In this document: piece after piece, positions 22,550 to 26,625 of the stretch
Layout of the letters: every line of letters starts with the position of its first letter
Numbering within the stretch: the first letter of the stretch is position 1
Origin: Anaeromyxobacter diazotrophicus
GTDB lineage: Bacteria; Myxococcota; Myxococcia; Myxococcales; Anaeromyxobacteraceae
Assembly: GCF_013340205.1 (NCBI RefSeq)
Contig: NZ_BJTG01000002.1
Coordinates: 248,001-312,000, forward strand
Direction: 5' to 3'
Length of the DNA: 64,000 nt
Notes under the pieces: generated by a model
Told to the model about the DNA's origin: nothing
What the model saw: the letters and a program-made list of their open reading frames with translations, nothing else
The model's database searches: none
Made by a program: the position numbers and the translations under genes

Positions 22550-23674
22550 TCAGAGCGCGGCGGCGAGGCGCGCCAGGTGGGCGAGGTCGTGGACGTCGGT
22601 GTCGAGGCGGGGGAGCTCCACCCGCGCGCCCGAGCTCTCCGCGAACAGCCGGGCCACCTCCCGCGCGTCGGCGCGCGCCAGCAGCTCGTGCTCGGCCAGC
22701 GTGCGGGCCAGCCGCGACGCGAGGGTGCCGTCGGGCACCCGCTGCGCCGCCAGCGCGGCCTCGAGCTCCACGGCGTCGGGGAGCGGCCCCGGGCCCCACA
22801 GCTCGCGGGTGACCCGGTTCGCCACCACCCCCGCCACCGGCATCCGCTCGGCCCGGAGCCGCTCGTGGAAGAAGAGCGTCTCGTCCACCGCGCGCGGGCT
22901 GGCGGAGGAGGTGAGGACGAACCCGACCTGCGGCTCGGCCAGCAGCGCCCGCACCGCGGCGGCGCGATCCTTGAACCCTCCGTACATGCCCTGGAAGGTG
23001 GCCATGAACTCGGCCAGGTCCTCCAGCACCTCGGCGCCGGTGAAGCGGGCCATGGTCTTCGCGACGTAGCTCCCGCCGAGCTGGAACAGCTTCAGGCCCA
23101 CCCGCCCGGCCGAGAGGGCCGGCGCGAGCAGGGTGCGGGCGGTGTCGTTCCCGAGGAAGTCGAGGATGCGGTCGGGCGCGTCGAGGAAGTCGAGCGCGTG
23201 GGCGGTGGGCGGGGTGTCGAGCACGATGAGGTCGTAGTCGCGCTCCGTGGCGAGCTCGTACAGCTTCTCCATGGCCATGTACTCCTGCGAGCCGGCCAGG
23301 GCGCTCGAGAGCTGCTGGTAGAGGCGGTTCCGGTAGATCCGCTCGCGCCGCGCGGGGTCGGGCGCGTGCCGCGCCACGAGGTCGTCCCAGGTGCGCTTCA
23401 CGTCGAGCATCATGGCGAAGAGCTGGCCGCGCGCGTGCAGCCCCGCCTCGGCCAGCCGCGCCTCGGGGACGCGGCTCTCGACGTTGCCGAGCGCCTCGAG
23501 CCCGAGCGCGTTGGCGAGCCGGCGCGCCGGGTCGATGGTGCAGACGAGGACCTTGCCGCCGGCGAGCGCGCGCCCGAGCCCGAGCGCGGCCGCGAGCGTG
23601 GTCTTCCCCACGCCGCCGGGGCCGACGCACACCGCGATGCGCTTCGCCTGGAGCGCGGCGGAGAGCTCGCCCAT
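22550..23674 (-). CDS. ArsA/Get3-type ATPase, second of a tandem pair
   Basis: A 374-residue P-loop ATPase of the ArsA/Get3/MinD class. It has a deviant Walker A (GPGGVGKTT, 18-26), the switch motif IDPARRLANALG, and LIVLDTPPTAHALDFLDAP (Walker B/switch II). It begins with ATG directly abutting the upstream TAG, so it forms one operon with the neighbouring paralogue. The adjacent pair suggests a heterodimer or duplicated targeting ATPase. No arsR, arsB or arsenite-efflux gene is close, so a role in arsenite export is not supported. Confidence 0.8.
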   Translation of the reverse strand: MGELSAALQAKRIAVCVGPGGVGKTTLAAALGLGRALAGGKVLVCTIDPARRLANALGLEALGNVESRVPEARLAEAGLHARGQLFAMMLDVKRTWDDLVARHAPDPARRERIYRNRLYQQLSSALAGSQEYMAMEKLYELATERDYDLIVLDTPPTAHALDFLDAPDRILDFLGNDTARTLLAPALSAGRVGLKLFQLGGSYVAKTMARFTGAEVLEDLAEFMATFQGMYGGFKDRAAAVRALLAEPQVGFVLTSSASPRAVDETLFFHERLRAERMPVAGVVANRVTRELWGPGPLPDAVELEAALAAQRVPDGTLASRLARTLAEHELLARADAREVARLFAESSGARVELPRLDTDVHDLAHLARLAAAL

Positions 23675-24634
23675 CTAGCGCCTCCCGGCGGGTGGCGGGG
23701 AGGCCCCGGCCAGCGCCGGCTCGAGGGCGGCGGCCACCGCCTCGACCGCGCCCAGGTCCCACCGCTCGCGGGCGAGCAGCGGCACGAGCACGGCCGGGAG
23801 GTCGATCGCGGCCCGGGCGCGCGCCAGGTAGCGGCCGGCCTGCTCGGCGCGGAGCGCCTGCAGGCGCGCGGCCGCCGCGGCGGGGCCGAGCGGCGGCGCG
23901 GCCGCCACCAGGTCCGAGAGGACGGAGGTCTCGCCGGGCGTGAAGCGCGCCTCCGGCATGGCGTTCACGAACAGCGCCCCGCGCGCGACGCCGAGGACGG
24001 TCCGCACCGCCGCCTCGAGCTCGATGGCCTCGTTGACCGGCATCTCCTCCGGCAAGGTCACGATCTGCAGGGAGGTCTTGCGGGGATCGACGAGCAGGGC
24101 GTGCATCCACTCGGCGTCGCGGCGGAGCGGCCCGGGGGGCACCGTCTCGAGGAGCGCGCCGGGGACGCGGAGGAGCTGCACCGCGTGCCCGGTGGCGGGG
24201 GCGTCGAGCACGACCAGGTCCCAGCGCGGCCGGCCGTGCTCCTCGGTCCGGACCTCGTGCAGCACCTTGCCCAGCATGACGAGCTCGGAGAGCGACGGGA
24301 CGGCGCGCAGGAAGTAGCGCACCACCCGGTTCTCGAAGACCGCGTCGTAGAGGGTCTTGAAGCGCAGGGTCATGAGGCCGTACTCGCGCATGGCCTCGGC
24401 CGGCGTCACGTTGGCCGTGAACAGGTTCGGGAGCGCCTGGCGCGTCTCGAAGCCGGCCGGGGGCGCGCCGAGCAGCGGCGCCACGCGCTCCTGCGCGTTG
24501 ACCTCGCAGACCAGCACGCGGCGGCCGCGCCGGGCGGCGAGGAGCGCCAGGGCCGTCGCGATCGTCGACTTGCCGACCCCGCCTTTGCCCGTGACGACGA
24601 GCAGGCGGCGGTCGAGGAGGGCGAGCCCTGGCAC
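23675..24634 (-). CDS. ArsA/Get3-type ATPase, first of a tandem pair
   Basis: A paralogue of about 319 residues of the following gene. It has a deviant Walker A (GKGGVGKST, 16-24), CEVNAQERVAPLLG in place of the usual IDPA motif, and LVVLDAPATGHAVQLLRVP. The start is uncertain: GTG at 24632-24634 gives MPGLALLDRR, while a TTG at 24646 would add four residues; neither has a clear Shine-Dalgarno. Its stop abuts the ATG of the second ATPase. Partners and cargo unknown. Confidence 0.75.
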   Translation of the reverse strand: MPGLALLDRRLLVVTGKGGVGKSTIATALALLAARRGRRVLVCEVNAQERVAPLLGAPPAGFETRQALPNLFTANVTPAEAMREYGLMTLRFKTLYDAVFENRVVRYFLRAVPSLSELVMLGKVLHEVRTEEHGRPRWDLVVLDAPATGHAVQLLRVPGALLETVPPGPLRRDAEWMHALLVDPRKTSLQIVTLPEEMPVNEAIELEAAVRTVLGVARGALFVNAMPEARFTPGETSVLSDLVAAAPPLGPAAAAARLQALRAEQAGRYLARARAAIDLPAVLVPLLARERWDLGAVEAVAAALEPALAGASPPPAGRR

Positions 24635-24676
24635 GGCGCTTGACAAGCTAGCGACCGGAAGGTGAGAAGTCCACCC

Positions 24677-25006
24677 ATGATCCTCGACGAGCTGCTCAGG
24701 AACCCGGCGGTGAAGCGCGCCATGTCGGCGGGCGAGGAGCGCGTCGGAAAGCTGGTCACCCAGCTGCTCGCGAGCGAGCGCGTCATGCACGGGGTGCAGT
24801 CGGTGTTCGCCTCCGCGCTGACCGCCAAGTCCACCTTCGACCGGGGCGTCCGCACCGCGCTCGGGGCGGTGAGCCTGCCCACCACCGAGGAGGTGGAGGA
24901 GCTGCGCCGCAAGCTGGGCGAGCTCGAGGCGATGCTCGACGGGATCGCCGCCAAGGTGGACCGCCCGGCCGGCAAGCCGGGCGGCGGCTCGCACGACCCC
25001 GCCTGA
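24677..25006 (+). CDS. Small phasin-like helical protein of unknown function
   Basis: A 109-residue protein. The N-terminal half is amphipathic (LLRNPAVKRAMSAGEERVGKL) and the C-terminal half is a coiled coil (EEVEELRRKLGELEAMLDGIAAKV). There is no signal or TM segment. GGTGAG about 10 nt upstream supports the ATG at 24677. It is near a PHA-synthesis regulator and a ParA-like ATPase, and its shape recalls small phasin-like granule proteins. This is inference from size, heptad pattern and context only. Confidence 0.6.
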   Translation: MILDELLRNPAVKRAMSAGEERVGKLVTQLLASERVMHGVQSVFASALTAKSTFDRGVRTALGAVSLPTTEEVEELRRKLGELEAMLDGIAAKVDRPAGKPGGGSHDPA

Positions 25007-25010
25007 GCGC

Positions 25011-25182
25011 CCATGCGCATCGCCTTCATCGATCGAAGCGGGGGCTGGCGCCCCCGCCCCGGCCAGCGGAGCTGGACCGGGGGCCCACCCCGCTCGCCGG
25101 GGCCCGTGCGCTGCCCGGCGCGGCATCCGCCGCGCGCCGGGCAGCGCCCCGGCGGGCTCGCTTCGCTCGCCGTGGGGTGACC
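25011..25182. repeat. Hairpin-rich insert with duplicated parA 5' end
   Basis: CCATGCGC occurs at 25011-25018 and again at 25181-25188. CGCATCGCCTTCATC occurs at 25016-25030 and again at 25189-25203, the second being the true parA start. Between them are strong stems: 25038-25045/25050-25057 (8 bp) and 25111-25122/25133-25144 (12 bp). The latter is extended by 25092-25103/25145-25156 with one G-T wobble. The first ATG (25013) opens a 55-codon frame that ends in TGA at 25178-25180 and has no protein-like character. It looks like a small REP-like element that landed in, and duplicated, the gene start. Confidence 0.55.
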
Positions 25183-25974
25183 ATGCGCCGCATCGCCTTC
25201 ATCAACGAGAAGGGCGGCACCTGCAAGACGACGCTGTGCGTGAACCTGGGGGCGTGGCTCGCCACCCGGCGGGGGCAGCGCGTGCTGCTCGCCGACCTCG
25301 ACACGCAGGGGCACGCCGGCAAGTCGCTGGGCGTGGACGTGCGCACGATCTCGCCCACGGTGAAGGAGCTCCTGCTCGGCACCGCCCCGCTCGACGCGGT
25401 GGTGCGCGCGTCGGCGGTGCCGGGGCTCGATCTCTTGCCCGCCAACAAGAGCCTGGCCGACTTCCCGCTCGAGGTGGCGAGCCGCGCCGATCGGAGCGCC
25501 CGGCTGCGCGAGGTGATCGACGCGCTGCCGGCGGGGCGCTGGGACGTGGTGCTGTTCGACGCCCCGCCCTCGGTGTCGCTCGTCACCGACAACGTGCTGC
25601 GGGCCGCCACCGAGGTCGTGCTGCCCGTCGCGCTCACCTACCTCGCGCTCGACGGCTGCGCCGAGATCATGGACAGCCTCGCCCGCCTCCGGGCCGAGCG
25701 CGGGGAGGCGCCGGCGCTCGCGCTCGTCGTCCCGGCGCTCTACCGCAAGACGCAGCTCGCGGACGAGATCCTGGAGAAGCTCCGGGAGCGCTTCCCGCGC
25801 GAGCTGGCGCGGACCGTCCTCGGCTGGTCGGTGAAGGTGGACGAGGCCCAGAGCCGCGGGCTGACCGTCTTCGAGCACGCCCCCGGCTCGAGCGGCGCAC
25901 AGGCGCTGGCCGCGCTCGCCGACGAGCTCCTGGAGCGCGCGCCGGCGGCGGCGGGGCGGGTGGCGGAGGGGTGA
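25183..25974 (+). CDS. ParA/Soj-family ATPase
   Basis: A 263-residue deviant Walker ATPase. Walker A reads KGGTCKTT at residues 10-17; Cys replaces the Gly of the usual KGGVGKTT. Walker A' is LADLDTQGHAGKSL and Walker B is DVVLFDAPPS. There is no ParB, no parS-like site and no N-terminal HTH, so it is an orphan positioning ATPase rather than a chromosomal Soj. The ATG at 25183 is preferred over the in-frame GTG at 25177 because GGGG lies at correct spacing. Neighbours suggest granule or cargo positioning (inference). Confidence 0.85.
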   Translation: MRRIAFINEKGGTCKTTLCVNLGAWLATRRGQRVLLADLDTQGHAGKSLGVDVRTISPTVKELLLGTAPLDAVVRASAVPGLDLLPANKSLADFPLEVASRADRSARLREVIDALPAGRWDVVLFDAPPSVSLVTDNVLRAATEVVLPVALTYLALDGCAEIMDSLARLRAERGEAPALALVVPALYRKTQLADEILEKLRERFPRELARTVLGWSVKVDEAQSRGLTVFEHAPGSSGAQALAALADELLERAPAAAGRVAEG

Positions 25975-26008
25975 GCGGCAGGGCCCGTGAGCGGGGGCGG
26001 TCGCCCGC

Positions 26009-26028
26009 GGCGGGGGGCGAGCCCCGCC
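26009..26028. terminator. Short hairpin between parA-like and phaR-like genes
   Basis: GGCGGGG (26009-26015) pairs with CCCCGCC (26022-26028) across a 6-nt loop, between convergent genes. Plausible terminator; similar stems are common by chance at this GC content. Confidence 0.35.
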
Positions 26029-26625
26029 CTACTTGAGCTGATCCAGCTTCTTCTCCAGCTCGGCGATGCGGTCGGAGAGCGCGGTGAGCTCGCGGCGGAC
26101 GTCGCCCACCGAGCCCATCCCCTCCACCGCGGTGCGGACGCGGTCGTCGACGCGCCGCTGGAACTGCGTGACGGCCTCCTGGGAGGCGGCCACCATCTCC
26201 TTGGCGCGGTCGGTCGTCTGCTGGCCGGACTTGAGCAGGGTCTGCACGCGCTGCTCGGCCGCCTGGCGCACCGCCTCGACCCGCCCCCGCAGCTCCGCCT
26301 GCGTGTCCTCGACGATCTGCGCCGCGCGCTCGCCGCCGTGGCGGATGAGGTCCTTGAGCGTGCGCAGGCTCATCTTGGAGGTCTTCTTCTCCTCCTCGAA
26401 GATGATCTGGGCCAGCGTGACGCTGGTGAGGTCTTCCTTGGTGCGGTTGTCGAGCACCTTCACCTCGGTGCCCGCCTTCACCATCTGCGCGATCTCGTCG
26501 AGCGTGACGTAGCGCGACTCCACGGTGTCGTAGAGCTTCCGGTTGGTGTAGCGCTTGATGATCTTCGGTTCGCGCGAGGCGTCGGAGGCTGAGGGTTCCG
26601 CGCCCGGGGTCTGCTCTTCGGTCAT
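26029..26625 (-). CDS. phaR: Polyhydroxyalkanoate synthesis regulator (PhaR-like)
   Basis: A 198-residue regulator. The PHB/PHA accumulation DNA-binding domain spans about residues 22-80 (KRYTNRKLYDTVESRYVTLD, then VLDNRTKEDLTSVTLAQIIFEE). A long coiled coil follows and ends in a Leu/Lys heptad segment (LSDRIAELEKKLDQL). In the known family it represses phasin genes and binds PHA granules. GGAGGA 7 nt upstream supports the ATG at 26625. No PHA synthase is in the window. Confidence 0.85.
   Translation of the reverse strand: MTEEQTPGAEPSASDASREPKIIKRYTNRKLYDTVESRYVTLDEIAQMVKAGTEVKVLDNRTKEDLTSVTLAQIIFEEEKKTSKMSLRTLKDLIRHGGERAAQIVEDTQAELRGRVEAVRQAAEQRVQTLLKSGQQTTDRAKEMVAASQEAVTQFQRRVDDRVRTAVEGMGSVGDVRRELTALSDRIAELEKKLDQLK

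Follow-up and report, generated by a model that had tools for sequence, protein, structure and literature searches.

A GC-rich hairpin insert between two copies of a parA-like gene start in Anaeromyxobacter diazotrophicus, probably a member of a mobile repeat family

The parA start and its duplicate

In the soil-type bacterium Anaeromyxobacter diazotrophicus, the start of a parA-like gene is present twice, around a GC-rich hairpin insert. Positions are given within the window, the whole 64,000-nt stretch of DNA that was analysed, and the features of the locus are listed below; R2 denotes a covariance model of the HP1-HP2 core.

24677..25006, plus strand: phasin-like gene, upstream; 109 codons plus TGA at 25004-25006; weak, below cut-off Pfam Phasin match (E 2.8e-4)
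25011..25030, plus strand: first of the two parA starts (copy 1), CCATGCGCATCGCCTTCATC, which lacks one CGC of copy 2 and has a stop-GCGCCC-ATG context
25013..25180, plus strand: 55-codon decoy frame from the ORF list, its stop 2 nt before the parA ATG
25031..25038, plus strand: 5' tag of the element, GATCGAAG; GATC is enriched before HP1 across copies
25039..25056, plus strand: hairpin HP1 of the core; R2 match at 25039-25091 (49.6 bits), the only one in the window at E<=0.1
25057..25083, plus strand: hairpin HP2 of the core, from the alignment, the covariation count and the R2 match
25092..25157, plus strand: outer stem with nested HP3; arms present in the sequence, pairing maintained by two-sided changes among copies
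25153..25171, plus strand: right-end stretch CGGGCTCGCTTCGCTCGCC, compared with 28 copies of the same type
25172..25182, plus strand: GTGGGGTGACC, between the right end of the element and the parA ATG, its CC being counted in copy 2
25181..25203, plus strand: copy 2, the working parA start; its start peptide MRRIAFINEKGG is conserved in relatives
25183..25974, plus strand: parA-like ATPase gene, open throughout; Pfam AAA_31 match (E 2.6e-36), orthologues in relatives

The motif CCATGCGC(CGC)ATCGCCTTCATC occurs at 25011-25030 and, as the true parA start, at 25181-25203. The original prediction, made from the sequence alone, had placed the two gene starts about 170 bp apart, and the 15-mer CGCATCGCCTTCATC indeed lies at 25016-25030 and 25189-25203, a spacing of 173 bp, with no third site in the window when one mismatch is allowed. 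With CCATGCGC in front, copy 1 measures 20 nt and copy 2 measures 23 nt, the sole difference being the CGC absent from copy 1. This repeat is not due to chance: the best match to the parA start among 20,000 simulated stretches of 40 nt was 12 nt. The GC-rich window holds four exact direct repeats of at least 15 nt within 250 nt, versus 0–2 in each of ten simulations; what sets the present one apart is that it coincides with a gene start and with the borders of the insert. The ATG of copy 1 follows the stop codon of the phasin-like gene by 6 nt, while copy 2 provides the working start, its ATG at 25183 opening the conserved peptide; 176 nt separate this start from the upstream stop.

The decoy frame that had been proposed to run up to the real start does exist, but it is to be expected by chance, as 4288 of 5000 simulations (86%) leave such a frame open. 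Since composition alone accounts for it, the frame carries no information, and a role as a functional leader is not supported. Re-initiation from it onto parA would be possible.

In the surrounding region (22550-26625), the ParA-like ATPase and the phasin-like gene are clustered with a PhaR-type regulator and with an ArsA/Get3-type ATPase pair, whose NCBIfam BagB and BagA matches are both below cut-off. In many relatives, the frame upstream of parA looks similar by eye. Such an arrangement would fit a granule-positioning ParA system.

The parA locus in relatives

Of 40 relatives, not counting the own genome, 25 have a ParA orthologue of 54–78% identity, and 62 further ParA loci with record titles were taken from a genome collection, giving 88 loci with our own. 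Removal of the own locus, 17 repeated sequences, and three loci without a usable start left 67 distinct relatives. None of these has a second copy of the parA start within 300 nt upstream, where the longest match is 9 nt, compared with 15 nt in the window. For 56 of them a simple rule could measure how far the start lies from the preceding stop codon: -4 to 65 nt, with a median of 15. An ungapped 24-nt comparison did not distinguish the window from background.

These loci bear on the notion that the insert is a conserved regulatory leader of parA. Its hairpins, together with an open leader frame that ends 2 nt before the ATG, are what such a leader might look like. However, both copies at the same spacing in distant relatives, which a leader would imply, were looked for and not found, the frame is open by chance, and the family to which the insert belongs also occurs elsewhere in the genome (see below). 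Contradicted by the relatives examined, a conserved leader is very improbable.

Two relatives point to where the gene originally began. The junctions at L007 (TAG-CGCCC-ATG) and L003 (TAG-CGCCGCCC-ATG) both resemble the stop-GCGCCC-ATG at copy 1, an indication that the parA start originally lay where copy 1 is now. The closest relative, G001, whose ParA is 78% identical, has its own, different leader of 65 nt, and the GTGGGGTGACC before the working start is partly similar to the end of that leader, GACGACC.

Fold of the insert

The insert (25031-25182) is 85% GC. The 8-bp stem and the extended 12-bp stem of the original prediction are both present, the former pairing 25038-25045 with 25050-25057 and the latter comprising the nested arms 25092-25103/25146-25157 and 25102-25122/25133-25153. 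The fold energy of the insert is -119.1 kcal/mol (z -4.66), with none of 200 shuffles equally stable, and a very stable fold thus now lies between the phasin-like gene and parA. In the lowest-energy fold of this copy the 8-bp hairpin (HP1) is absorbed into a longer stem and does not stand separately. A known RNA family was rejected as the identity of the insert: Rfam gave no match at gathering score in 20 element loci, and the two matches in window positions 24500-25700 at E<=1 were both under the gathering score.

A dispersed hairpin family

A search of the genome with the insert as DNA query returned two other places, at 80 and 84% identity, and a longer copy used as query returned eight places at E below 1e-10, the query and the window copy included. 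From eight aligned copies we built the covariance model R1. RNAalifold predicts 41 pairs in them, 13 with a two-sided change, the covariation bonus adding no net energy. R1 finds nine matches in the own genome, as does R2. At E<=0.01, 17 of 41 genomes (own included) contain R1 matches, with counts of one to at least 68 per genome; up to 74 candidates were scored per genome, so the high counts are lower bounds, and the E-values are rough. An alignment of 34 matches fitted to R1, and hence biased towards the model, shows two-sided changes in 27 of 36 predicted pairs.

The second model, R2, is limited to the HP1-HP2 core. Cores chosen by R1 (30 distinct, 29 after trimming) were realigned with MAFFT. 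Counted against a hand-written structure, 96.8% of 476 cells are paired and nine of 17 pairs show two-sided change; sliding the partners along the core drops the paired cells to 31–54%. The covariation score is 0.253 versus 0.100 in shuffles, and none of 500 shuffles reaches the observed value on four of five measures; the fifth, the number of further pair types, is matched by 70 of 500. Because related sequences can beat shuffles without structure, this covariation supports, without proving, a conserved fold.

Across the phylum, R2 at E<=1e-4 (30 candidates scored per genome) is positive in 22 of 195 genomes and has no match in the other 173. Of the positive genomes, 17 belong to the same family (own included). 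G027, from another family in that order, has 17 matches, and the remaining four have 1–5 weak matches each. At one G027 locus (L169) two HP1-HP2 core matches lie on opposite strands.

The element consists of an HP1-HP2 core with a variable outer stem and right hairpins, about 150 bp and up to five hairpins in all. For comparisons of flanks we assembled 48 copies, namely 28 of the 34 matches in the R1 alignment plus 20 copies from G004; those left out were L160 and L178 (identical with L194 and L195) together with the weak matches L167, L169 (two), and L170. L181-L183 never entered. A set of 47 omits L161, whose flank is too short. Several copies in either set are orthologues in related genomes, and the counts below are accordingly not independent. 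Within the 12 nt immediately preceding HP1, 16 of 48 copies have a GATC, versus one of 48 in a control stretch. The pattern GGGGCCCCACC was not used as a marker because its reversed control is commoner (25 versus 10). Many copies in G020 and G013 carry an extra left module that ends in CTGTCGTTTAG or similar (L274, L279, L281, L285, L292, L295, L202), which in L202 looks by eye to belong to a long inverted repeat. Some copies also end on the right in a tail that finishes with GGTCGTTTAG, making composite elements.

Presence and absence in near relatives

The original prediction of a REP-like mobile hairpin found support in a comparison of one pair of near relatives, in which the 20 best-scoring of 42 copies in G004 were checked at the expected position in G019. 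Six loci could not be located there (L195, L200, L205, L206, L208, L209). Eight of the 14 located sites are without the element in G019 (L196, L197, L198, L201, L202, L203, L204, L213), although at some of them other sequence sits in the place of the element, so that loss in G019 may account for the difference. Remnants are found at L207 and L211, and the element is present at L194 and L212. L210 matches as far as the fetched G019 stretch reaches, and is thus present at least in part, and L199 was assigned to no class.

L201 shows the direction of the change. The G019 protein ends ...GGGWLERGTAAAAAPAPATPASPAAPAPAEPAQAAPPQQG, and in G004 the frame stops at ...GGGWLEHGKS, followed by the element and then by a surviving piece of the former C-terminus, codons for PPQQG-stop. 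The sequences indicate that the element clearly entered the end of the gene and shortened it. We read the family as a mobile, REP-like element.

Position at stop codons

Genes were taken here from frames that span 100 codons or more and are GC-rich at third positions, rather than from annotation. For 28 of 47 copies, the 20 nt that precede HP1 contain the stop codon of such a frame, versus 34 of 2362 control positions (1.4%); all 28 stop codons begin 2–13 nt before HP1 on the same strand. Likewise, 37 of 48 copies have a stop triplet among the 9 nt immediately preceding HP1, versus six of 48 in a control stretch. The window copy is exceptional in lying before a gene start, 32 nt past the stop codon.

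This placement recalls GTAG REPs, whose termini frequently serve as stop codon for the neighbouring ORF (PMC3733652), and also E. coli REPs, which are reported to stall ribosomes when no more than 15 nt from a stop codon (PMC12306157). By analogy, the element would work like a REP or BIME: with its strong hairpin after the stop codon it can probably slow down ribosomes and influence where and how the message of the upstream gene ends, and at this locus a second predicted effect is displacement of the parA start. We tentatively suggest, while considering it doubtful, that the family has its own mobilisation system, with a stop-triplet 5' tag that would dock at stop codons. Each insertion would then end the upstream gene cleanly and supply it with a 3' structure that slows ribosomes.

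The same observations could be taken to mean that the family is not a selfish mobile repeat: recombination would have spread it, and selection would maintain it as a 3'-UTR or translational control module. A stop codon close upstream in more than half of the copies, the paired changes in the stems, and the stalling attributed to E. coli REPs (PMC12306157) would all be consistent with this. We nevertheless regard a control module as unlikely, in that eight of the 14 located copies are absent from a near relative and that the L201 copy shortened its host gene.

Origin of the flanking duplication

The original prediction regarded the duplicated start as a target duplication. The parA start is indeed duplicated on both sides of the insert here, but this is not the mode of the family. 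The longest exact repeat between left and right flanks measures 15 nt in the window copy, whereas the other 47 of the 48 copies have 5–10 nt, and 568 mixed pairs do not exceed 12 nt. A gapped comparison of ten right-truncated copies of the window's subtype scored 33 for the window, 8–18 for the others, and at most 21 for 90 mixed pairs. Scores of 14 or more were reached by seven of ten own flank pairs versus 27% of mixed pairs, a weak excess, with only the window above the mixed maximum. L197, outside the gapped comparison, has a 9-nt flanking repeat, a length reached by 33 of 568 mixed pairs. We therefore reject target duplication as a family trait, and the long duplication is perhaps peculiar to the event in the window, as 47 of 48 copies lack it.

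Our preferred reading, to which we assign a probability of roughly three in four, is that Anaeromyxobacter-type bacteria have a mobile, non-coding repeat family with several hairpins, that the insert is one of its copies, and that its insertion duplicated the parA start. The window copy is without the right tail that several other copies of the same type have. Such a right-truncated copy would have entered the first parA codons just after ...TTCATC, in an event that presumably duplicated about 20 bp; the original start (copy 1) would thereby have become a dead leader frame, while parA would retain an intact start beyond the insert because of that duplication. Given insertion, we somewhat favour a staggered break or fill-in as the truncated copy went in as the most likely route; its main rival would be template switching at the hairpins.

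In one form of the latter, no target would have been duplicated at all. An element already present between the genes may have stalled replication at its hairpins, whereupon the polymerase would have jumped ahead to the parA start and returned after using about 20 nt there as template, making copy 1 a templated insertion. The rarity of long flanking repeats in the family, the very stable fold of the insert, and the partial likeness of GTGGGGTGACC to the end of the G001 leader all suit this scenario. However, it would leave to coincidence the resemblance of the stop-GCGCCC-ATG to the L007 and L003 junctions, and we consider a templated copy 1 improbable.

Relation to REPs, REPINs, and MITEs

Like REPs and BIMEs, the family is palindromic and multi-copy, lies near gene 3' ends, with an upstream stop codon close by in most copies and the window copy an exception, and forms composite arrangements, but it differs from them in its length and in the number of its hairpins. 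GTAG, expected directly 5' of the palindrome in the GTAG superfamily, is found there in only two of 48 copies. For this reason, and because no examined RAYT-like gene is flanked by copies, we do not file the family as a REP. It shares with REPINs the character of a non-autonomous mobile hairpin population (PMC3116915), but is not an inverted pair of one REP, being built instead on its core, outer stem, and right hairpins. With MITEs it has in common that it is small, non-coding mobile DNA, but regular target duplication is missing, the gapped comparison giving a weak excess at most.

A search of literature on Anaeromyxobacter and myxobacterial repeats, with subscription journals mostly outside its reach, found no described REPs, and the available parts of work on REPs, RAYTs, and target duplication or on ParA and phasins (PMC3733652, PMC5217627, PMC2817692, PMC2330069, PMC12306157, PMC8266576) do not describe this hairpin family. 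PMC6006769 contains none of the terms for which it was searched. The family would thus add a covarying repeat, many copies of which are anchored at stop codons, to a group for which the searched literature yielded no REPs. Sites occupied in one near relative and empty in another make it testable what moves REP-like repeats without a RAYT partner, as well as whether hairpins at stop codons alter expression of the preceding gene.

RAYT-like genes and a second hairpin

A RAYT-like transposase (NCBIfam NF047646, 62.6 bits against a cut-off of 80) is multi-copy in several genomes of the bacterial family, with three matches in the own genome. Among 24 genomes of that family (own included), 15 have both the element, by either model, and the RAYT-like gene, two have the element only (G001, G008), two the gene only (G005, G010), and five neither (Fisher p 0.009, uncorrected for ancestry). 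Despite this co-occurrence, a RAYT was rejected as the mobiliser, there being no convincing element match in the loci examined: ten Y1_Tnp loci gave none with R1 at E<=1 or R2 at E<=0.1, and 20 RAYT-like loci, part of those found, gave with their 1-kb flanks a single R2 match at E 0.94. The closest pairs of element and RAYT-like gene that we noticed are 3–5 kb apart (G019 4600993/4604302; own genome C6 245963/250858).

The RAYT-like genes (L253-L272, e.g. own genome C5:427728-428618) have a motif of type GACCNAGAG upstream in 19 of 20 loci versus none of 20 within the gene, and a loose reverse-complement pattern, counted without control, downstream in 15 of 20. The RAYT-like transposase may therefore form an autonomous element that has ends of its own.

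A second GC-rich hairpin, with a GTAG start, lies on the minus strand at 25975-26034 of the window, directly after the phaR stop codon; at up to two mismatches, only three similar places occur in the genome, this one included.
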